Source: a virus. From it: a stretch of 24,638 nt of DNA. A program made the translations under genes and the position numbers. The notes beneath the pieces are model-generated. The model worked only from the letters and a program-made list of their open reading frames with translations, did no database searches and was not told the origin of the DNA. The stretch spans positions 1 through 24,638 of the IMG/VR virus record IMGVR_UViG_3300032087_001274. One strand, given 5' to 3'. Below are positions 4,929 to 24,390 of the stretch, in pieces. How positions within the stretch are numbered: position 1 is the stretch's first letter; each line of letters starts with the position of its first letter.

Positions 4929-5502
4929 GACTACTATGACTAAAAAAACAAAAACACAAAAAGAACATTATGTAAATAATAAGGAGTTTTTGGCTGCCAT
5001 GATTGAATTCAAAAAGGCAGTACAACATGCTGAAAAGAAGAAATTAGATAGGCCTCCTGTTACAGATTACATTGGTAGTTGTTTCTTAAAGATAGCGAAT
5101 CACTTATCGTATAGACCTAATTTTATTAACTATACATTTAGAGATGATATGATTAGTGATGGTATAGAGAATTGTTTACAGTATTTGGATAACTTTAATC
5201 CAGAGAAATCTAACAATCCTTTTGCTTACTTTACACAAATCATTTATTACGCATTTATTAGAAGAATACAAAAAGAGAAAAAACAAGTAACCATTAAACA
5301 AAAACTAATAATGGAACATAATTATGATGATATGAGTTTGCAACCAGGAGAAGATAGGGATTTTAAAAATCAATTTACTGAATTCTTACAAAAGAATACA
5401 ATAATTGACGAACCAGCTAAAAAAGAAAAAAAGAAAAGAACTACTAAAAAATCACAATCAACCTTGGAATATTTTATTAATGAAGATAGCGTTACTGAAT
5501 GA
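4927..5502 (+). CDS. gp55: Late-transcription sigma factor gp55
   Basis: gp55 directs host RNA polymerase to late promoters and is activated through the gp45 sliding clamp. The 191 residues match T4 gp55 (185). The N-terminal HYVNNKEFLAAMIEFKKA corresponds to T4 YVNNKELLQAIIDWK, and the core FRDDMISDGIENCLQYLDNF and NPFAYFTQIIYYAFIRRIQKE is the sigma region 2-like part. Near the C-terminus (residues 177-184) QSTLEYFI aligns with the T4 clamp-binding SLDFLYE element and reads almost as a PIP box. ATG 4927 is coupled to the upstream stop and has GAGG ten bases upstream; ATG 4936 is an alternative. The late boxes in this window are its predicted targets. Confidence 0.93.
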   Translation: MTTMTKKTKTQKEHYVNNKEFLAAMIEFKKAVQHAEKKKLDRPPVTDYIGSCFLKIANHLSYRPNFINYTFRDDMISDGIENCLQYLDNFNPEKSNNPFAYFTQIIYYAFIRRIQKEKKQVTIKQKLIMEHNYDDMSLQPGEDRDFKNQFTEFLQKNTIIDEPAKKEKKKRTTKKSQSTLEYFINEDSVTE

Positions 5503-6529
5503 CACACATTTCGGATGCCGTAATGACTCACCTGCCTTTATAGAATACCAAAATAAGTTTTACAATAACATTTTCTTTCCATACTTGAAAGAACATAACA
5601 TTGGAACATTGGTACATTTAGGTGATGTTGTTGACAGACGAAAGTTTATAAACCATAATACAGCTCATAACTTTAAAAAAGTTTTTTGGGACAAACTAGA
5701 TGATATGGTTATTGATACCCATATAATTATAGGTAACCATGACACATATTATAAGAACACAAACGAGGTCAATGCTTTACAGAATCTTAATATTTCTAAA
5801 AATGCTAAAATCTATACCCGAGCAACTACTGTTAACCTTGGGGGTATTGATATATTGTTTCTTCCTTGGATTTGTGATGACAACTTGGATGATAGTGTAC
5901 ATGCTATTGACAATACCACTTCGACTATTTGCATGGGTCACCTTGAAATTAAGGGCTTTGAAATGCACAAAGGCGTTTACAATGACCATGGACAAGAAAA
6001 ATCACAATTCACAAAATTTGAAAAAGTAATATCAGGCCATTTTCATAAGAAGTCAGATGATGGTCGTATCTATTATCTAGGCACACAATACGAAATTACA
6101 TGGTCAGACTATCAATGTCCTAAAGGTTTTCATATATTCGATACAGAAACAAGAGAACTAGAAAGAATATCTAATCCTTATCGTATGTATAAAAAGATAT
6201 ACTATAATGATAAAGAACAAAACTATTCACAATACGACTTAACAGAGTTTGATAATACTTATGTAAAACTATTCATTGTTAATAAAACAGATGAAGATAT
6301 GTATAATCAGCTTATAGAGAGAATTTATAATACAATTAGTGTACACGAATTACAGATTATAGAAGACCCGATTGATGTTTCTTCTACAGTAAGAAGTGAT
6401 ATATTGGACGCAGGTGAAGATACACAAACTTTCTTAAACAACTACATTGACCAGGCTGATACTGGTGAATTAGATAAACAAAAATTAAAACAGTTTGCAA
6501 GAGAATTATATGGTGAAGCTAGTGAATGA
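5480..6529 (+). CDS. gp47: Recombination nuclease subunit gp47 (Mre11/SbcD family)
   Basis: gp47 is the nuclease partner of gp46, and together they resect DNA ends for recombination-dependent replication. The 349 residues compare with 339 in T4. The metallophosphoesterase motifs are in order: LNDTHFG (D8, H10), LGDVVDRR, IGNHDTYY, GHLEIKG and SGHFHKK. I chose ATG 5480, where the motif-bearing MKIALLNDTHFG begins; it lies 23 bases inside gp55 in another frame. The C-terminal third should contact gp46. It ends in an ATGA overlap with gp46. Confidence 0.94.
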   Translation: MKIALLNDTHFGCRNDSPAFIEYQNKFYNNIFFPYLKEHNIGTLVHLGDVVDRRKFINHNTAHNFKKVFWDKLDDMVIDTHIIIGNHDTYYKNTNEVNALQNLNISKNAKIYTRATTVNLGGIDILFLPWICDDNLDDSVHAIDNTTSTICMGHLEIKGFEMHKGVYNDHGQEKSQFTKFEKVISGHFHKKSDDGRIYYLGTQYEITWSDYQCPKGFHIFDTETRELERISNPYRMYKKIYYNDKEQNYSQYDLTEFDNTYVKLFIVNKTDEDMYNQLIERIYNTISVHELQIIEDPIDVSSTVRSDILDAGEDTQTFLNNYIDQADTGELDKQKLKQFARELYGEASE

Positions 6530-8235
6530 TTACATTTAAGAAAATAAGATATAAGAACTTTCTATCTACAGGTAATGTACCAATTGAGGTAGAACTAGAT
6601 AAAACTCCTACAACATTAATCGTTGGTAGTAATGGTAGTGGTAAATCTACTTTACTTGACGCATTGTGTTATGCTTTGTTTAATAAACCATTTAGAATTA
6701 TTAAGAAAGACCAAATGGTTAATACTATTAATAATGGTGATACACTTGTTGAAGTAGAGTTTGAAGTTGGTACAAATCAATATATGATTAGACGAGGCAT
6801 TAAACCAAATCTATTTGAAATATATCAAAATGATAAACTTATAAACCAAGACGCAAGTAATATAGATTATCAAAAATACCTAGAACAAAATATAATGAAA
6901 CTGAATTACAGGTCATTTATTCAGGTCGTTATTTTAGGTTCCTCATCTTACGAACCGTTTATGAAGATGAAACCAAGATATAGACGAGAAGTTGTTGAAG
7001 AAATTTTGGACATAAGAGTTTTTGGCTTAATGGACTTGATTTTGCGTTCCCAACAGAGTGATTTACAAAAAAGTCTTACGGAGGTGAGGCACCAATGTGA
7101 GTTAATAAAGACCAAGTATGAAACTGAAGCAAAACACTTAAAGTCTTTGGAAGACCAAGGAACAGACATCCAGGCGCACAAGCAAAAATTGTTAGATAAA
7201 AACACACAAGATACACTTGATTATGAACAAAAAATACAAGAACTGAATGAATCAATAGCAGTATCAAAAGAAAAGGTAAAAGACAAACTAAAAGTTGATA
7301 TGAAGTACAATCAACTACAAAAATTAGAAGCTAAGATAGAAACAAATCTATCATCACACAAAAAGACATTAGAATTTTTTGAACAGAATGATAATTGTCC
7401 TACTTGTACACAACCCATAAATGCAGATTTTAAGGAACAAAAATGCAACCACGAACACCAAACCATTTCGAAACTATCAGGCGGCTTGCGAGAGCTCGTA
7501 GAAGAACTTTCCAAACAAGAGGAGAAAGTAACGCAGTTTGGCCGGATAACGAACAAGATACAAGAGATGAATGTGGACATAGCCAAGATTCATACAAGTC
7601 TGGAAAACATAAAGAAAAATAGTGACCAGATACACCGTGATATTTCAATGGCACAAAACAATGATATTGAAAGTATCAAAGAAGATTTAGTTAATATGTC
7701 AGTACAATTAAAAGAAGCTGAAGAAGAACTAAACAAAGTACAAGAACAAAAGAAGTATGTGGATGTATTAAGAGAAATACTAAATGACAAAGGTGCTAAA
7801 GCACAAATCATTAAGAAGTATTTACCTATTATGAACCAGTTGATTAATCAACACTTACAATCTATGGATTTTTATGTTAACTTTAATTTAGATGAAGAAT
7901 TTAACGAAACAATAAAAAGTAGATTTAGAGATACTTTTAATTACAATAGTTTTAGTGAGGGTGAGAAAATGAGAATTGACTTGGCCTTACTTTTTACTTG
8001 GCGACAAATCGCTAAGATGAAAAATAGTACAAATACCAATCTATTAATGTTAGATGAAATATTTGATAGTAGTTTAGATGGTCAAGGTATGGACGACTTC
8101 TTTAAAATTATCAAACAGTTTGAGAAAGAAAACATCTTTATTATATCTCATAAAGGCGATATATTATTTGACAAGTTTACTAATATTATTAAATATGAAA
8201 AATATAAAAACTTTACGAGGTTACAACAAACATGA
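6526..8235 (+). CDS. gp46: Recombination ATPase subunit gp46 (Rad50/SbcC family)
   Basis: This SMC-like ATPase complexes with gp47. The 569 residues compare with 560 in T4. Walker A is GSNGSGKS (34-41). A long coiled coil (about 180-440) is interrupted near residue 290 by the zinc hook CPTC. The ABC signature FSEGEKMRIDLALL is near 474 and Walker B LLMLDEIFD near 505. All catalytic elements are intact. The start is an ATGA overlap with gp47 and the stop is an ATGA overlap with def. Confidence 0.95.
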   Translation: MITFKKIRYKNFLSTGNVPIEVELDKTPTTLIVGSNGSGKSTLLDALCYALFNKPFRIIKKDQMVNTINNGDTLVEVEFEVGTNQYMIRRGIKPNLFEIYQNDKLINQDASNIDYQKYLEQNIMKLNYRSFIQVVILGSSSYEPFMKMKPRYRREVVEEILDIRVFGLMDLILRSQQSDLQKSLTEVRHQCELIKTKYETEAKHLKSLEDQGTDIQAHKQKLLDKNTQDTLDYEQKIQELNESIAVSKEKVKDKLKVDMKYNQLQKLEAKIETNLSSHKKTLEFFEQNDNCPTCTQPINADFKEQKCNHEHQTISKLSGGLRELVEELSKQEEKVTQFGRITNKIQEMNVDIAKIHTSLENIKKNSDQIHRDISMAQNNDIESIKEDLVNMSVQLKEAEEELNKVQEQKKYVDVLREILNDKGAKAQIIKKYLPIMNQLINQHLQSMDFYVNFNLDEEFNETIKSRFRDTFNYNSFSEGEKMRIDLALLFTWRQIAKMKNSTNTNLLMLDEIFDSSLDGQGMDDFFKIIKQFEKENIFIISHKGDILFDKFTNIIKYEKYKNFTRLQQT

Positions 8236-8798
8236 AAGAACTAAAATTAATACCACCAAGCGACCCTAGAGTCAACAATGCAATTGCACCATTTGTTGAT
8301 GAAATGTTAAAAGACGAAGGATTTAAAGATAGAAAAGAATTAGTAGAAGCTATGTTTTTCTCTATGGAAAAATACCATGGTATAGGTCTATCAGCAAACC
8401 AAGTAGGTTTACCTTTTAATATGTTTGTAGTTGGTGGTCATCCACAAATAGAAAATGGTATGAAGTTATCTTGTTTTAATCCTATGATTATAGAATCAAG
8501 TGAAGAAACTATAATGATGAAAGAGGGTTGTTTAACTTATCCGTTCTTGTTTTTAAACATTAAAAGACCAAGAAAGATTACCTTAAAATATACAGATGAA
8601 GACGGTGAACTAAAAGAGGCCAAACTTGATGGTATGATGAGTCGTATTGTACAACATGAATATGACCATATGTTAGGCAGAAACTTTACTGAAAGAGCAA
8701 GTAAGTTAAAGATTGACGCAGCTATGAAAAAGCGTGATAAGATGTTAAAAAGAATTAAGAAATACCAAGAAGCTGAAGCCAAAATGAATAAGGCTTGA
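8232..8798 (+). CDS. def: Peptide deformylase
   Basis: Def removes the formyl group from the N-terminal methionine of new proteins. The 188-residue protein has all three active-site motifs: GLSANQVG (52-59), EGCLTYP with metal-binding C100, and QHEYDHMLG with H142, E143 and H146. It should be active. Compared with host enzymes the C-terminus carries a lysine-rich helical tail (KKRDKMLKRIKKYQEAEAK). Phage deformylases are known from marine T4-like phages, where they are thought to sustain host translation or photosystem protein maturation. The start overlaps gp46 by four bases. The stop codon lies inside the -35 of the next promoter. Confidence 0.95.
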   Translation: MKELKLIPPSDPRVNNAIAPFVDEMLKDEGFKDRKELVEAMFFSMEKYHGIGLSANQVGLPFNMFVVGGHPQIENGMKLSCFNPMIIESSEETIMMKEGCLTYPFLFLNIKRPRKITLKYTDEDGELKEAKLDGMMSRIVQHEYDHMLGRNFTERASKLKIDAAMKKRDKMLKRIKKYQEAEAKMNKA

Positions 8799-8823
8799 CA
8801 TTTTTAATACTTTAGTGTAGGAT
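8795..8823 (+). promoter_or_regulatory. Sigma70-type promoter for the DUF4338 gene
   Basis: TTGACA (8795-8800), a 17-base spacer and TAGGAT (8818-8823). The -35 is preceded by AAGGC, as at other promoters here. Initiation near 8830 would leave only about three bases before ATG 8833, and the -10 overlaps the only Shine-Dalgarno-like sequence (AGGAT 8819-8823). Confidence 0.55.
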
Positions 8824-8832
8824 AGTTATATT

Positions 8833-10131
8833 ATGAGTTACAGTTGGAATAAAGATATGTCGATAGATGACCAATGGCAAAGTTGGCAAGACAATACAGA
8901 TTTGTCTAAAATACCAGATATTGATACAGAAACATTAAAACAAACAATCATTAAAGATTTGACCTTTGTATCAGCTATGACGGTACAAGAGTACACACTT
9001 TATCAAAAATTTCAGGAAGTAAAGTTTAGATATCCAACAGTAGAAACAAATAGTTTCTTTGATGATAAACCTGCTATGTTAAGACCTGAACAGGCAACAG
9101 TTATACAAGAAGTAAAGAATAACTTTTGGTTACCAGATGACCCCGAAGAATACTTAAATTTACAACCAGAATTAGTTTGGACAGATGGTGCTGAAGTACA
9201 ATCACATACAAATGCTAAAGGTTCTGAAGTTTGGAACGCATTGAGAACATTTTTATCTACCATGAAAAACAATAGTAACATTGGTAGAAATCTTAACTTT
9301 TTAGTTAGAGATAAAGTAACACAGAAATACCTAGGTGTTATCTGTATGAGTAGTGACTTTTTAGACCTTACACCTAGAGATGAATATATTGGTTGGGAGA
9401 GAGAAGCTAAAACTCAAAGAATGATTAATCATACTTGCATTGGTAGTACAATTGTACCAATACAACCACTTGGATACAATCTGGTTGGTGGTAAACTACT
9501 TGCTTTATTGTGTTTATCAGATACAGTTGAACAGACATGGGAACATCAATATAAAGATAAACTAGTTGGTGTAACAACAACAAGTCTATATGGTAAGACA
9601 AAGACTATACCACTATCACAATATGATAGATTAAAACATTGGAAGAAAATGGGTTGGACAGCTGGTTCAGTATCATACGAACCAGAGAAAACAACCAATA
9701 CCATGATACAACAATGGTTAATGAAGAACCACACATACAAATACTTTGAATGGTATGTTGCAAAGAAACCTAGTGGTCAGCCTCATAAGAGAGACCATAG
9801 AAATAGAAGTAGAGCATTTACATACAGTAAACTAGGTATTGATAAGAAACTACAAAAGTCTGAACATGCCAGAGGTATCTATTTTGGTGAGTTATTTACA
9901 AATACAAGAGAATTTTTAAGAGAAGAAACTAATACGACAGGTCTGACAAGAGCATTTGACAATTCAGTTGAAGCACTTACAGATTTATGGAAGACCAAAT
10001 ATGCTAGAAAACGAATAGCTAGTTTGAAGAAACAAGACCGTGTTTCAAAGGAAACACATTTCTATGACGATATTATTTTCTTGTCATGGGAAGAAACCAA
10101 AGCAAAATATTTACCACAGGTAGGGAGATAA
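8833..10131 (+). CDS. DUF4338 (DruA-like) family protein
   Basis: This 432-residue protein contains, at about residues 150-260, a segment I recognise as the DUF4338 pattern: NLNFLVRDKVTQKYLGVI, then SSDFLDLTPRDEYIGW, then a helix, MINHTCIGSTIVPIQPLGYN, and LLALLCLSDTVEQTWEHQY. DUF4338 is the family of DruA from the Druantia anti-phage system; its biochemical activity is not established as far as I know. The C-terminal half (KKPSGQPHKRDHRNRSRAF onward) is basic and may bind nucleic acid. No other Druantia gene is nearby. The phage role is unknown. It has its own promoter and runs into mazG. The family call rests on remembered motif similarity, not on a search. Confidence 0.6.
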   Translation: MSYSWNKDMSIDDQWQSWQDNTDLSKIPDIDTETLKQTIIKDLTFVSAMTVQEYTLYQKFQEVKFRYPTVETNSFFDDKPAMLRPEQATVIQEVKNNFWLPDDPEEYLNLQPELVWTDGAEVQSHTNAKGSEVWNALRTFLSTMKNNSNIGRNLNFLVRDKVTQKYLGVICMSSDFLDLTPRDEYIGWEREAKTQRMINHTCIGSTIVPIQPLGYNLVGGKLLALLCLSDTVEQTWEHQYKDKLVGVTTTSLYGKTKTIPLSQYDRLKHWKKMGWTAGSVSYEPEKTTNTMIQQWLMKNHTYKYFEWYVAKKPSGQPHKRDHRNRSRAFTYSKLGIDKKLQKSEHARGIYFGELFTNTREFLREETNTTGLTRAFDNSVEALTDLWKTKYARKRIASLKKQDRVSKETHFYDDIIFLSWEETKAKYLPQVGR

Positions 10132-10136
10132 TTACC

Positions 10137-10532
10137 ATGAGTGAAGGACAACTAGAATTAGAATTAGGTACTGTAACAAACGAAAATCATAAATACAAGA
10201 AAATTAGCGACCTGGATATGTACCAAAAGGTTGCTTTAACAACGGCAATATATCCGAGAGAACAGGCCATTATTTACCCAACATTGGGTTTGACCGGTGA
10301 AGCAGGCGAAGTTGCGAATAAAGTAAAGAAGATAATAAGAGATGGCTCAGATAGTAAAGATGAAAAACTGGTGTCTGAAATCAAAAGTGAAATTGGCGAT
10401 TGCCTTTGGTATATCGCTGTATTGGCTAATGATTTTGACATTAAGTTATCCGACATTGCAAGCGCTAATATAGAAAAATTAGCAACCAGAAAATCAAAAG
10501 GAACTATACATGGTTCCGGTGACAACAGATGA
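10137..10532 (+). CDS. mazG: MazG-like nucleotide pyrophosphohydrolase
   Basis: MazG-fold enzymes hydrolyse (d)NTPs, and in some phages are proposed to act on ppGpp or on alarmone-driven host responses. The 131-residue protein shows the metal-binding helix pair: GLTGEAGEVANKVKKIIRDG (EAGE) followed by SEIGDCLWYIAVLANDF (E..D). I chose ATG 10137, with GGGAG nine bases upstream; the frame extends further into the DUF4338 gene but lacks a start signal there. Common in marine T4-like phages. It ends in an ATGA overlap with the next gene. Confidence 0.9.
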   Translation: MSEGQLELELGTVTNENHKYKKISDLDMYQKVALTTAIYPREQAIIYPTLGLTGEAGEVANKVKKIIRDGSDSKDEKLVSEIKSEIGDCLWYIAVLANDFDIKLSDIASANIEKLATRKSKGTIHGSGDNR

Positions 10533-11302
10533 AACACAGAGTTGTTATCGTAACCGGTGGTTTTGACCCCCTACATTCAGGACATTTAGAATACCTAAAA
10601 TGTGCCAAAGCATTAGGTGAGGTATTGATAGTTGGACTAAATTCAGATGATTGGTTAAGTCGTAAAAAAGGTAAGTCTTTCTTACCATATTATGAAAGAG
10701 AACAAGTATTATTGAATTTAAAAGCTGTAGATAATGTAATAAACTTTGCTGACCATGACGATACAGCCATAGAAGCCATACTAAAAGTCAAAAGATTTTA
10801 TCCAAATGCTAAGTTAATCTTTGCAAATGGTGGTGACCGTAAAGACGATAATATACCAGAATTAGAACACTTTATTGATGAGGAGTGGATTGATTTTGAG
10901 TTTAATGTTGGTGGTTCCAAAAGCAATTCATCATCTAGCATACTTGAAAAATGGGCTGATAATCGCACGGAGAGACCATGGGGTTACTACCGAGTATTAC
11001 ATAATGACAAAGATGTCGTAAAGGTAAAAGAACTGGTGGTTGAACCAGGTAAGTCTTTATCTATGCAACAACACAAATACAGAGCTGAACATTGGTTCAT
11101 TTCATCTGGTGTAGCTACAGTTTATACTATCAATAAAGCATCCACAGATTACGAATTACAAGGACACTACAAAATGTTTGATAATTTACATATTAAAAGA
11201 GGTGATTGGCATATGTTATCAAACGAATCAACCGAATCGTTGCGAATCGTGGAGATTCAATATGGTTCCGAGTGCTCGGAAGACGATATTTTGAGAAAAT
11301 AA
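10529..11302 (+). CDS. Cytidylyltransferase-like / mannose-6-phosphate isomerase-type cupin fusion
   Basis: This 257-residue protein has two domains. Residues 1-135 form an HIGH-type nucleotidyltransferase of the RfaE/TagD kind: TGGFDPLHSGHLEYLK with H16 and H19, then VGLNSDDWLSRKKGK. Residues about 145-250 form a cupin like the C-terminal domain of type II mannose-6-phosphate isomerase/ManC: RPWGYYRVL, VEPGKSLSMQQHKYRAEHW with several histidine metal ligands, and LHIKRGDWHMLSN. The pair suggests activation and isomerisation of a sugar or alditol phosphate for glycan building, perhaps for virion or host surface glycans. The substrate cannot be read from sequence. It overlaps mazG by four bases and ends this unit. 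Confidence 0.8.
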   Translation: MKHRVVIVTGGFDPLHSGHLEYLKCAKALGEVLIVGLNSDDWLSRKKGKSFLPYYEREQVLLNLKAVDNVINFADHDDTAIEAILKVKRFYPNAKLIFANGGDRKDDNIPELEHFIDEEWIDFEFNVGGSKSNSSSSILEKWADNRTERPWGYYRVLHNDKDVVKVKELVVEPGKSLSMQQHKYRAEHWFISSGVATVYTINKASTDYELQGHYKMFDNLHIKRGDWHMLSNESTESLRIVEIQYGSECSEDDILRK

Positions 11303-18542: not shown

Positions 18543-18979
18543 GTGAAGATACTATAAATTGGTCGCAAAGTGATATGCTAGAAGTCACTATCAAGCAACC
18601 GGACGATTTTCTAAAAGTCAGAGAAACCCTAACTAGAATTGGTGTTGCAAGTCGTAAAGACAAAACACTATTTCAGAGTTGTCATATTTTACACAAACAA
18701 GGTAAATATTACATTACACACTTCAAGGAGTTATTTGCCCTTGATGGTAAGAACTCTACTTTAACAGAAAACGATATACAAAGAAGAAATACAATAGCAT
18801 TATTACTACAAGACTGGAATTTAATAGAGGTAGTTAATACTTCTTTAGTTGAAAACAAGGCACCATTAAGTCAAATCAAAGTATTACCATTTAAAGAGAA
18901 GAGTGAATGGAATATGGTCGCTAAATATAATATAGGCAAAAAACCAGAAGATAGTAAAAGTGCAAGTACAACCGTTTAA
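18539..18979 (+). CDS. regA: Translational repressor RegA
   Basis: RegA binds the initiation region of many early mRNAs and blocks ribosome entry. The segment MLEVTIKQPDDFLKVRETLT, followed by RIGVASRKDKTLFQSCHILHK and YYITHFKELFALDG, is nearly line-by-line T4 RegA (LKKPEDFLKVKETLTRMG, KDKVLYQSCHIL, YYIVHFKEM). At 146 residues it is longer than T4 RegA (122), with an N-terminal extension of about twelve residues and a C-terminal tail ending KPEDSKSASTTV. The stop lies 19 bases beyond the GTG start of the next gene. Confidence 0.95.
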   Translation: MSEDTINWSQSDMLEVTIKQPDDFLKVRETLTRIGVASRKDKTLFQSCHILHKQGKYYITHFKELFALDGKNSTLTENDIQRRNTIALLLQDWNLIEVVNTSLVENKAPLSQIKVLPFKEKSEWNMVAKYNIGKKPEDSKSASTTV

Positions 18980-20345
18980 AAATTACCTAGAAGAGGCTAC
19001 AGGCGATAAAAAGTTTTTGCGTCTGCTTATCATTACAGATGAGCCAGATAATGCAAAAGAATTTCATACTGCCGATAGACTACAAGAAGAATGTAAGAAG
19101 TTAAACTATCCGTTTTACCTCTTCAAACTTACTGGTGGTTATACAACTTTAGAGGACGGTGTTCGTAGATTTCATAACAAAGACGATAAAAAAGGTTTTG
19201 AAGTTGGTGCCATGACAGTTGCTATTGTTCGTGGTAGTATTACAAGAAAAGATAGTTGGTTAGACCTTGTGTCTATACTTGAAAGAGCCAATGCAACACT
19301 TGTAAATCCAAGAACTACAATTAATATTTGTGCAGACAAATATAGAACAGCATTAAGACTTGCAGATTATGGTTTAACACAACCATTGACCAAGTTAATT
19401 AGTGACCCCGAAAAATCTAATGAACAAGTAGAAGAATCAGGTATTAAGTTTCCTCTTATTATGAAAACATTGAGAGGTAGTAAAGGTGTTGGTGTATTGT
19501 TTGTCGATAGTCCAAAAGGTTTAGATTCTATTGTACAACTTATTCACAAACAAGATGAAGACGCTGACCTATTAATACAAGAATATATTAAGACAGAATA
19601 TGATGTTAGAGTACATGTATTAGGTGGTAAAGTATTGGCTGCTATGGCAAGACCAGTTATTGAAGGAGATTTCAGGTCAAATGTATCGCAAGGTTCAGTA
19701 CCTAAAAAGATTAAATTAACTGAACTAGAAATAGAAGAAAGTTTAAAGGCTGCTAAGGCAGTTGGTGGTTATTGGACTGCTGTTGATTTTATACCTAGTA
19801 AGAATAGAGATAGTAAACCACCATATTTTCTTGAAGTAAACTCTTCACCAGGTACAGAGGGTATTGAAGACGCTACAGGTATGAATATTGCAAAAGAAGT
19901 TATTACACACTTTGCAAATAAAGAAAATAGATTTACTGTACCTACAGAGTGTGGGTATAAAGAAATTTTGACTATAAAACCTTTTGGTGAATTAGTATCA
20001 AAATTTGATACGGGTAATTCAGGCATGCCAGTTATACATGCTGATAAATTTAAAATAAACGGAAATAAAATTACATGGTCTCTATTAGATAAAACTATTA
20101 CAAGTGATATTGTTCGTAAAGAAGATATTAAAGTAGGTGGTTTGAGAGATTATGATGAAGACCGATATGTCGTAAAACTAGATGTAGAATTTGCCGGTGG
20201 TTTCTATAAAGATGTAGAATTTACCATTGACGATAGAGAAGATAGAACACCTATTCTTCTTGACCGTGCATTTATGAAAAAATTAAATGTCATGGTAAAC
20301 CCACAAAGAAAGTATGTGATAACAACTAAATATAGTTTAGATTAG
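18960..20345 (+). CDS. RimK-like ATP-grasp ligase fused to RimB-like aspartic protease, with a capsid-targeting-like N-terminus
   Basis: The 461-residue protein has two parts. Residues about 18-325 are a RimK-type ATP-grasp amino-acid ligase: NPRTTINICADKYRTALRLA, FPLIMKTLRGSKGVGVLFVD, LIQEYIKTEYDVRVHVLGGK, GGYWTAVDF and FLEVNSSPGTEGIE (metal-binding E and N). Bacterial RimK adds glutamates to ribosomal protein S6. Residues about 335-461 resemble the RimB/DUF785 retropepsin-like protease, with catalytic D350 in FDTGNSGMPVIHAD and ILLDRAFMKKLNV near the end; RimB is normally a separate neighbour of RimK. The first residues, PFKNYLEEAT, resemble T4 capsid-targeting sequences with a gp21-like site after L-E-E. 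The start is GTG 18960, inside regA. Substrate and packaging are inferred. Confidence 0.85.
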   Translation: MQVQPFKNYLEEATGDKKFLRLLIITDEPDNAKEFHTADRLQEECKKLNYPFYLFKLTGGYTTLEDGVRRFHNKDDKKGFEVGAMTVAIVRGSITRKDSWLDLVSILERANATLVNPRTTINICADKYRTALRLADYGLTQPLTKLISDPEKSNEQVEESGIKFPLIMKTLRGSKGVGVLFVDSPKGLDSIVQLIHKQDEDADLLIQEYIKTEYDVRVHVLGGKVLAAMARPVIEGDFRSNVSQGSVPKKIKLTELEIEESLKAAKAVGGYWTAVDFIPSKNRDSKPPYFLEVNSSPGTEGIEDATGMNIAKEVITHFANKENRFTVPTECGYKEILTIKPFGELVSKFDTGNSGMPVIHADKFKINGNKITWSLLDKTITSDIVRKEDIKVGGLRDYDEDRYVVKLDVEFAGGFYKDVEFTIDDREDRTPILLDRAFMKKLNVMVNPQRKYVITTKYSLD

Positions 20346-23476: not shown

Positions 23477-23861
23477 TCCTGTTAACATAAGCGGACAATT
23501 ACTAGAGGACAAAGTTGAAGCTTATTGTAGAGAAAATAACATTAGTTATAAAAGAGCCAGGTCTGGCGAACATGCAATAGATTTTATTATTGAAAGTAGT
23601 AGAGGTAAAATATTTGCCGATTGTACTAATCAAAATTCAGGTGGTAGTGTAGAAGAAAAATTACCACACAAACTATGGAAATACTTTAAGAAATATCAAT
23701 ATAGAAATGTGTACATTATAAAAGGCGACCATAAAATATCTAAAAGTGTATTAGACCATTGTAATGAAATGGCAAGAGGATATAATTTCGATTTACATTT
23801 TGTAAACTATGAACAGTTTACGAATAACTTAACAGCTAAAGAGGAGAGTTTCTTTGGCTGA
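23469..23861 (+). CDS. PD-(D/E)XK nuclease-like protein, altered active site
   Basis: The 130-residue product has the layout of small phage and restriction-type PD-(D/E)XK proteins: HAIDFIIES (D38), KIFADCTNQNSGGSVEEKL and PHKLWKYFKKYQ. Relatives usually read E-x-K-N-Q here; this one has D51-C-T53, so the catalytic lysine is replaced by threonine unless K64 takes over. I chose the TTG start at 23469 because GGAGG (23458-23462) is six bases upstream; the earlier ATG 23439 has no such signal. The start overlaps the gp43 stop by eight bases. It ends EESFFG, like the end of gp43. The role may be in repair or branch processing; activity is uncertain. Confidence 0.65.
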   Translation: MDNPVNISGQLLEDKVEAYCRENNISYKRARSGEHAIDFIIESSRGKIFADCTNQNSGGSVEEKLPHKLWKYFKKYQYRNVYIIKGDHKISKSVLDHCNEMARGYNFDLHFVNYEQFTNNLTAKEESFFG

Positions 23862-24390
23862 TTTCCCAACCAAAAAATATGGAGTTATATATGCAGACCC
23901 TCCGTGGTATTTTAAAACGAGGTCAGATAAGGGAAAGGATAAAAGTCCTGAAAGACACTATCCTTGCATGCCTCTTGCTGACATTATTCGGTTACCTGTT
24001 GACCGAATTGCTGAGGACAATGCAGTCCTCTTAATGTGGGTTGTTGACCCTATGTTAGACCAGGCGTTTAAAGTTATAGACGCCTGGGGTTTTAAGTACA
24101 AGACAGTTGGTTTTACATGGGCAAAAACGAATCGAAAGAAGTTAGGATTTTTTACTGGTTTAGGATACTGGACAAGAGGTAATCCTGAAATGTGTTTACT
24201 TGCAACAAAGGGTAGACCGTCAAGAAAGGCCATGGATGTGGCACAATTAGTGGTATCACAAAGAGGTAAACACTCCGAAAAACCACTACTACATAAAGAA
24301 ATAGAAAGACTTGTGGATGGTCCATACATTGAATTATTTGCAAGAAAAAAACCTTATGATAATTGGGACTATTGGGGTAACGAAGTTTGA
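23854..24390 (+). CDS. MT-A70-type adenine methyltransferase
   Basis: This 178-residue SAM-dependent enzyme has the catalytic DPPW (15-18, YADPPWYF) and the MT-A70 pattern VLLMWVVDPMLDQAF, TVGFTWAKTN, NPEMCLLATKGRP and VSQRGKHSEKP, ending in PYIELFARK with a DNWDYWGNE tail. It probably makes N6-methyladenine in phage DNA, which could protect against restriction or mark DNA. An RNA target is possible because the family includes RNA enzymes. The start is TTG 23854 with GAGGAG seven bases upstream, overlapping the nuclease stop by eight bases. Confidence 0.9.
   Translation: MADFPTKKYGVIYADPPWYFKTRSDKGKDKSPERHYPCMPLADIIRLPVDRIAEDNAVLLMWVVDPMLDQAFKVIDAWGFKYKTVGFTWAKTNRKKLGFFTGLGYWTRGNPEMCLLATKGRPSRKAMDVAQLVVSQRGKHSEKPLLHKEIERLVDGPYIELFARKKPYDNWDYWGNEV

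Follow-up and report, generated by a model that had tools for sequence, protein, structure and literature searches.

A stand-alone DruA-family protein with a predicted GNAT-like fold in a T4-like pelagiphage core

What does a phage do with a protein of the DruA family when it carries the gene without the rest of a defence system? Catalogues list DruA as a defence protein without a known function, and a lone member lies in a phage genome fragment (IMGVR_UViG_3300032087_001274) whose full 24,638 bases, here called the window, were analysed. The original prediction, made from the letters alone, placed a DUF4338 protein under its own promoter between def and mazG, and proposed either a counter-defence or inter-phage exclusion factor, or a general nucleic-acid role of the family used by both sides. 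The features at the locus are as follows.

5405 to 8235, plus strand: SbcD/SbcC-like gp47-gp46 recombination nuclease genes, upstream of def and the DruA-like gene
8232 to 8798, plus strand: peptide deformylase gene (def), phrog_2890, the upstream neighbour here and the commonest upstream neighbour of the long form
8795 to 8823, plus strand: sigma70-like promoter TTGACA-N17-TAGGAT, 9 nt before the ATG, with a putative transcription start
8833 to 10131, plus strand: DruA-like (PF14236/DUF4338) protein of 432 aa, ATG start, no internal stop, a predicted GNAT-fold acyltransferase
10137 to 10532, plus strand: MazG-like pyrophosphatase, phrog_229 (E 6e-38), the downstream neighbour

Membership in DUF4338 was confirmed by profile searches. 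The 432-aa protein matches PF14236 at E 1e-23 (84.4 bits against a Pfam gathering cut-off of 27; 84.2 bits on repeat scoring), with residues 131-363 covering model positions 62-296 of 297, and it matches the PADLOC DruA1 model at E 1.4e-19. Its closest named relatives, annotated as DUF4338 or hypothetical, are found in the Pelagibacter phages Mosig EXVC030M (84.7% identity) and HTVC008M (54.2%). The gene is under purifying selection, with dN/dS values of 0.06-0.15 in 10 pairwise comparisons with hand-picked relatives. At E <= 0.01 the protein matches 31 phage records, among which a genome may appear more than once; 25 of the records are named Synechococcus, and one Synechococcus phage record labels its own DUF4338 copy 'methylcarbamoylase mom'. 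Three scans of IMG/VR returned 137, at least 592 and 278 relatives; we kept the 80 best from each scan, with overlap between scans, so that the counts given below describe near relatives of the queries.

The surrounding genes form a T4-like pelagiphage core, comprising the major head protein, tail tube, UvsY-like mediator, helicase (called UvsW by synteny with Mosig), late sigma factor, SbcD/SbcC-like gp47/gp46 and deformylase, together with the DruA-like gene, MazG, a peptidase, the clamp, clamp loader subunits, a translation repressor, DNA polymerase and a DNA methyltransferase (phrog_359, 23854-24390). The likely mazG ATG lies 5 nt past the DruA-like stop codon, behind a GGGAG site, although a longer open reading frame runs from 10086. 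Mosig shows the same def-DruA-mazG order, mazG adjoining the DruA-like gene there as well, and in HTVC008M no mazG is annotated next to the long-form copy. In the accessible text of a study of pelagimyophages (PMC7029224), typical mazG is reported absent and deformylase is placed in a core DNA-metabolism operon; that portion holds no discussion of the DruA-like gene. Elsewhere in the window, positions 10529-11302 encode a cytidylyltransferase-like domain fused to a mannose-6-phosphate isomerase/cupin domain, and the product of positions 18960-20345, a gene flanked by those for the translation repressor and DNA polymerase, matches a PHROG that bears the name ribosomal protein S6 glutaminyl transferase.

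The gene appears to stand alone. When 10 other proteins of the window were scanned with PADLOC, no Dru model appeared among the families shown at E <= 1e-5 (25 of the 28 matches in the case of the SbcC-like protein), and the UvsW-like helicase and the SbcC-like protein matched other, non-Dru models. DruB-E, which accompany druA in Druantia type I and include the DruE helicase, were thus not seen among these proteins. Both the lone state and the position between def and mazG hold as originally described. For comparison, one contig classed as viral carries an apparent Druantia I operon (L305:6001-13195, IMGVR_UViG_3300009702_000717). It comprises DruA, two proteins of 952 and 444 aa for which Pfam gave nothing at E <= 0.01, and a DEAD helicase truncated where the locus stops.

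Phage DruA-like genes come in a long and a short form, which we separated at 400 aa. Each neighbour given is whichever of 23 reference proteins matched closest to the gene, up to 1.5 kb away; genes of other kinds may therefore intervene. The nearest upstream reference gene of the long form is def in 106 of 122 distinct loci and gp46 in 5. Among the 71 distinct open reading frames below 400 aa, 62 have gp44 and/or gp62 as a neighbour, 3 follow gp41 at 3-203 nt, 1 lies between gp43 and uvsX, 2 have neither neighbour type, and the remaining 3 are long forms misassigned by the length split (L115-L117, 397 aa as called). The proteins of Synechococcus phages (phrog_19197) belong to the same Pfam family and, as here, are stand-alone proteins of T4-like phages, but they are shorter (352-383 aa in four checked; 25-28% identical to the 432-aa protein) and are encoded between the clamp-loader genes gp44 and gp62, whereas the 432-aa form sits beside def. 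Such proteins are already published: the Phold paper (PMC12774648) reports six Synechococcus phages that have one, and illustrates the S-PRM1 protein.

Some genomes carry two copies. Within the 16 records searched, these are HTVC008M, whose second, short-form copy lies between gp43 and uvsX, and three IMG/VR records. Two contigs of the Thermoplasmata MAG SG225.bin14 (L247, L248), which resemble phage though binned as archaeal, carry a long-form gene followed directly by a second DruA paralogue. Downstream of the paralogues, directly or after one open reading frame, lies a DNA polymerase matching phrog_262; upstream of the pair lies a DnaB-like helicase (one small reading frame between) or a dUTPase. 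This recurrent placement beside replication genes hints that the proteins act on DNA or on the replication apparatus, not in a defence system.

The 432-aa protein shares with Druantia DruA the invariant residues G151, G168, R182, GGKL 219-222, Y240 and Y264, among others, in an alignment of 13 sequences, and profiles of the two groups align clearly (hhalign, 99.1%, E 1.8e-18). The loops differ: Druantia I has the PPYxxLLGGK type, long-form phage proteins QPLGYNxxGGK. We built a tree from 55 core domains (long branches flagged, root uncertain; L318 dropped, its core being mostly insert), and in it the four Druantia I DruA rows form one clade (100/98). The 432-aa protein falls outside it, in a long-form clade of 24 rows (89/85) made up of 22 phage records and the 2 phage-like Thermoplasmata contigs. 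A short-form clade holds 16 rows (99/91), four of them from MAG contigs that may or may not derive from phages, and the second Thermoplasmata paralogues join the long-form side (92/94). Since the clades are separate, the phage genes seem to have branched off deeply and not to have been taken from Druantia in recent times. The phylogeny of phage against bacterial members, which the original prediction had called for, accordingly sets the phage clades deeply apart, with the caution that long branches are flagged. Two such clades, placed near gp44/gp62, gp41, gp43/uvsX or gp46/47-def and sometimes both present in one genome, appear to be new; we did not find them in print in the part of the literature that we could search.

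The promoter-like site is conserved too. A promoter scan of the window does not by itself rise above chance, since 12 promoter-like sites fall in 8200-10700 against a shuffle mean of 10.4. Across relatives, TTGACn-N17-TAnnnT occurs upstream of 71 of the 122 distinct long-form genes (the window counted in), as compared with 35 of 7450 mononucleotide shuffles of the same upstream stretches, duplicates included. The spacer is 17 nt in all 71 sites although 15-19 was allowed, and the -10 box lies 6-9 nt from the start codon in 67 of them. The promoter-bearing relatives are not independent, yet their spacer letters differ, and at several loci the site remains at the DruA-like gene even where hundreds of bases separate that gene from def upstream. 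The site is missing from most of the listed relatives at greater distance (about 57-63% identity). The claim that the gene has its own promoter is thus upheld, though the site is not unique to it: because similar sites precede the peptidase gene of the window (11401), gp43 in HTVC008M and genes elsewhere, we regard it as one phage promoter class, not the mark of a special gene. With the -10 box so near the start codon, the transcript is probably leaderless or nearly so. A T4-type late promoter, TATAAATA, was considered for the long form and set aside, being found at 0 of 149 loci, duplicates included.

What the protein might do is suggested by its predicted fold. The AlphaFold2 model (pLDDT 84.9, pTM 0.83) has an order of strands and helices that reads as that of the GNAT superfamily, and very probably the 432-aa protein folds in this way. 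Its parts are as follows.

Codons 111-285 (9163 to 9687), plus strand: GNAT-like core of the predicted model, borders set by hand
Codons 153-160, 166-174 and 201-209 (strands), 215-226 (helix), 246-252 and 271-281 (strands), plus strand: elements of the GNAT-like core in the predicted model
Codons 207-223 (9451 to 9501), plus strand: strand-loop-helix IVPIQPLGYNLVGGKLL where a GNAT would have its acyl-CoA loop, a putative assignment from topology
Codons 249-267 (9577 to 9633), plus strand: conserved strand, then turn/helix, TTSLYG...SQYDRL, from alignments
Codons 286-432 (9688 to 10128), plus strand: basic C-terminal part, calculated pI 9.9, charge +13

In the loop region, Q211, P212, G214, N216, G219, G220 and K221 show no variation among the 41 phage sequences that make up alignment A2. 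The charge of the whole protein is not consistently positive among relatives (-0.8 in L109, +0.2 in L168).

Among solved structures, VIA-align ranks Mom of phage Mu first (8bv8, Z 9.9, rmsd 4.1, 169 aligned); the 50 listed entries run from Z 9.9 to 8.2 and are Mom, SpeG chains (up to 9.3) and other acetyltransferases. As entries within one Z unit are ties, the model points to a GNAT-like fold rather than to identity with Mom. Foldseek alone gave no match in the PDB at E <= 0.001, its list consisting mostly of acetyltransferases at weak E-values, and a sequence search of solved structures with the phage profile returned nothing at E <= 10. A second model, built for the DruA of a Druantia I locus on a viral contig, reached pLDDT 46. 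Against predicted viral structures, Foldseek returned four matches at E <= 0.001: one uncultured Caudovirales fragment and three giant-virus proteins from Faunusvirus, Yasminevirus and Dasosvirus (BFVD A0A3G4ZXG3, A0A5K0UAJ3 and A0A3G4ZRA1; E 4.6e-18 to 5.2e-9). As these three match the model, the DruA-like family may extend to giant viruses. The identification of DUF4338 as a GNAT domain is itself published, for domains fused to DndF (Rakesh, Aravind and Krishnan, PMC10853773).

Mu Mom (PF25680) is a GNAT-fold enzyme of DNA adenine modification, and it is connected with DruA at the sequence level through a small intermediate set. Direct comparison does not link them: Pfam Mom is not matched by the 432-aa protein, for which DruA alone is listed at E <= 1; profile comparison gave E 0.24 for phage DruA against Mom and E 0.081 for Druantia DruA against Mom; and we keep the connection as one of fold and bridge only. 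The bridge consists of four transposase-linked DUF4338 sequences, which came from genome samples of two bacterial phyla. In two of them a single open reading frame joins a DUF4338/DruA domain to a DDE transposase domain that passes the Pfam cut-off (L316:1459-3078 and L319:133-2205); a third (L315), whose frame reaches the locus end, has a sub-cut-off transposase DNA-binding match and a weak Pfam Mom match (E 0.0024, below cut-off); the fourth has neither transposase feature. In hhalign runs, whose E-values are those of single comparisons, the four align with Mom (92.6%, E 4.5e-7, 166 columns), Druantia DruA (93.5%, E 2.3e-7) and phage DruA (81.7%, E 1.1e-5), and a deformylase control alignment gave E 0.25-0.5. 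N121 and S124 of Mom align with N136 and S139 of the set (fragment numbering), which are invariant in the four. S124 is the essential serine of Mu Mom, and the title of 8bv8 reads 'inactive mutant S124A'. In the 432-aa protein its counterpart is L225 through the profile chain or G219 in a hand-made register; the register is uncertain, and neither residue is a serine. This set, which bridges the two at sequence level, appears to be new; among the papers listed by a literature search, with subscription journals largely outside it, no DruA-Mom connection was found in print.

Mom itself occurs in other phages. Jumbo phages encode Mom-family enzymes (PMC7824862), and Methylophilales phage Melnitz-2, of the same family (Kyanoviridae), encodes a true Mom (L288:8992-9801, PF25680 E 2.6e-50, annotated DUF465) and has no DruA match. 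We do not press a mutual exclusion of Mom and DruA, as Melnitz-2 is the one Mom carrier among the 16 records. Two of these (G001, W05) are equal in length and probably represent a single genome, several records are fragments, and a DruA-like gene was the reason for choosing every record except that of Melnitz-2.

We postulate that the gene product is a phage-specific, stand-alone DruA-family protein with a predicted GNAT acyltransferase core. Its gene would be read from a sigma70-like promoter of host type, belonging to a class that also precedes some replication genes. The protein would most likely bind acyl-CoA or a similar donor and, in the manner of Mom in phage Mu, may pass the acyl group to DNA; the most plausible substrate is freshly replicated phage DNA, and the modified genome could thereby be shielded from nucleases. 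That the 432-aa protein acts on nucleic acid falls slightly short of an even call, and DNA modification during replication, proposed by analogy with Mom, is our best explanation, held a little more tentatively. In its favour are Mom as the top structural match, the transposase-linked bridge, the replication-gene placement, Melnitz-2 with Mom and without DruA (one case only), and the methyltransferase gene in the window. The first three also lend some support to the general nucleic-acid role that the original prediction had offered. Against it stand the failed direct DruA-Mom comparisons, the missing Mom serine, the tie between SpeG and Mom, the Foldseek result in the PDB, the suggested protein targets of DndF-fused DUF4338 domains, the inconsistent charge of relatives, and immediate neighbours, def and mazG, that are not DNA-modification genes.

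The acyl group might instead go to a host or phage protein, such as RNA polymerase, the clamp loader or a nuclease, and thus aid host takeover or tune the replisome. This seems unlikely. Acetyltransferases of small molecules or proteins, SpeG among them, tie with Mom as matches to the model; the short form lies beside gp44 and gp62, so the clamp loader could be a partner; in phiKMV-like phages the GNAT Rac is directed at host RNA polymerase (PMC7824862), and the DndF-fused GNAT domains annotated DUF4338 could, it has been suggested, target proteins (PMC10853773). The transposase-linked members and their bridge to Mom speak for DNA, however, and the C-terminal part of the 432-aa protein is basic. 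It is quite improbable that acyl transfer has been lost and that a non-catalytic GNAT-like protein binds DNA or replication intermediates, or serves as a scaffold. GNATs use a Q/RxxGxG/A loop, from which the conserved loop differs, and the Mom serine is absent; the invariance of Q211, G214, N216, G219, G220 and K221 nevertheless suggests a ligand site that has been kept.

The defence-related readings of the original prediction, both weak, found no direct support. A decoy that mimics DruA and poisons host Druantia could draw on the region in common with Druantia DruA, but the phage clades are deeply separate and DruA-family matches are rare in the two bacterial phyla sampled (6/296 and 2/191 genomes, each count including a genome chosen for having a match), which makes it very improbable. 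Least probable of all is a lone effector excluding co-infecting phages, as the family name and the kinship with Druantia might suggest, given the lack of a DruB-E partner among the proteins scanned and the steady core place behind def, which is not a variable defence spot.

Returning to DNA modification, the finding would carry furthest if DruA, Mom and the transposase-linked DUF4338 proteins formed one nucleic-acid acyltransferase family. T4-like marine and related phages would then acylate DNA as it is made, with dedicated copies, sometimes two, beside replisome genes, and Druantia would use the same chemistry to mark or sense DNA; we consider this wider scheme improbable. A PADLOC-style DruA match in a phage genome is no evidence of a Druantia system. 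The gene appears to be a phage-specific variant of a known family, for which the model offers a clear chemical prediction. Its predicted GNAT-like fold, the bridge to a known DNA-modifying enzyme and the tie to replication genes lead to a concrete hypothesis, namely that the DNA of pelagiphages and cyanophages may contain modified bases.
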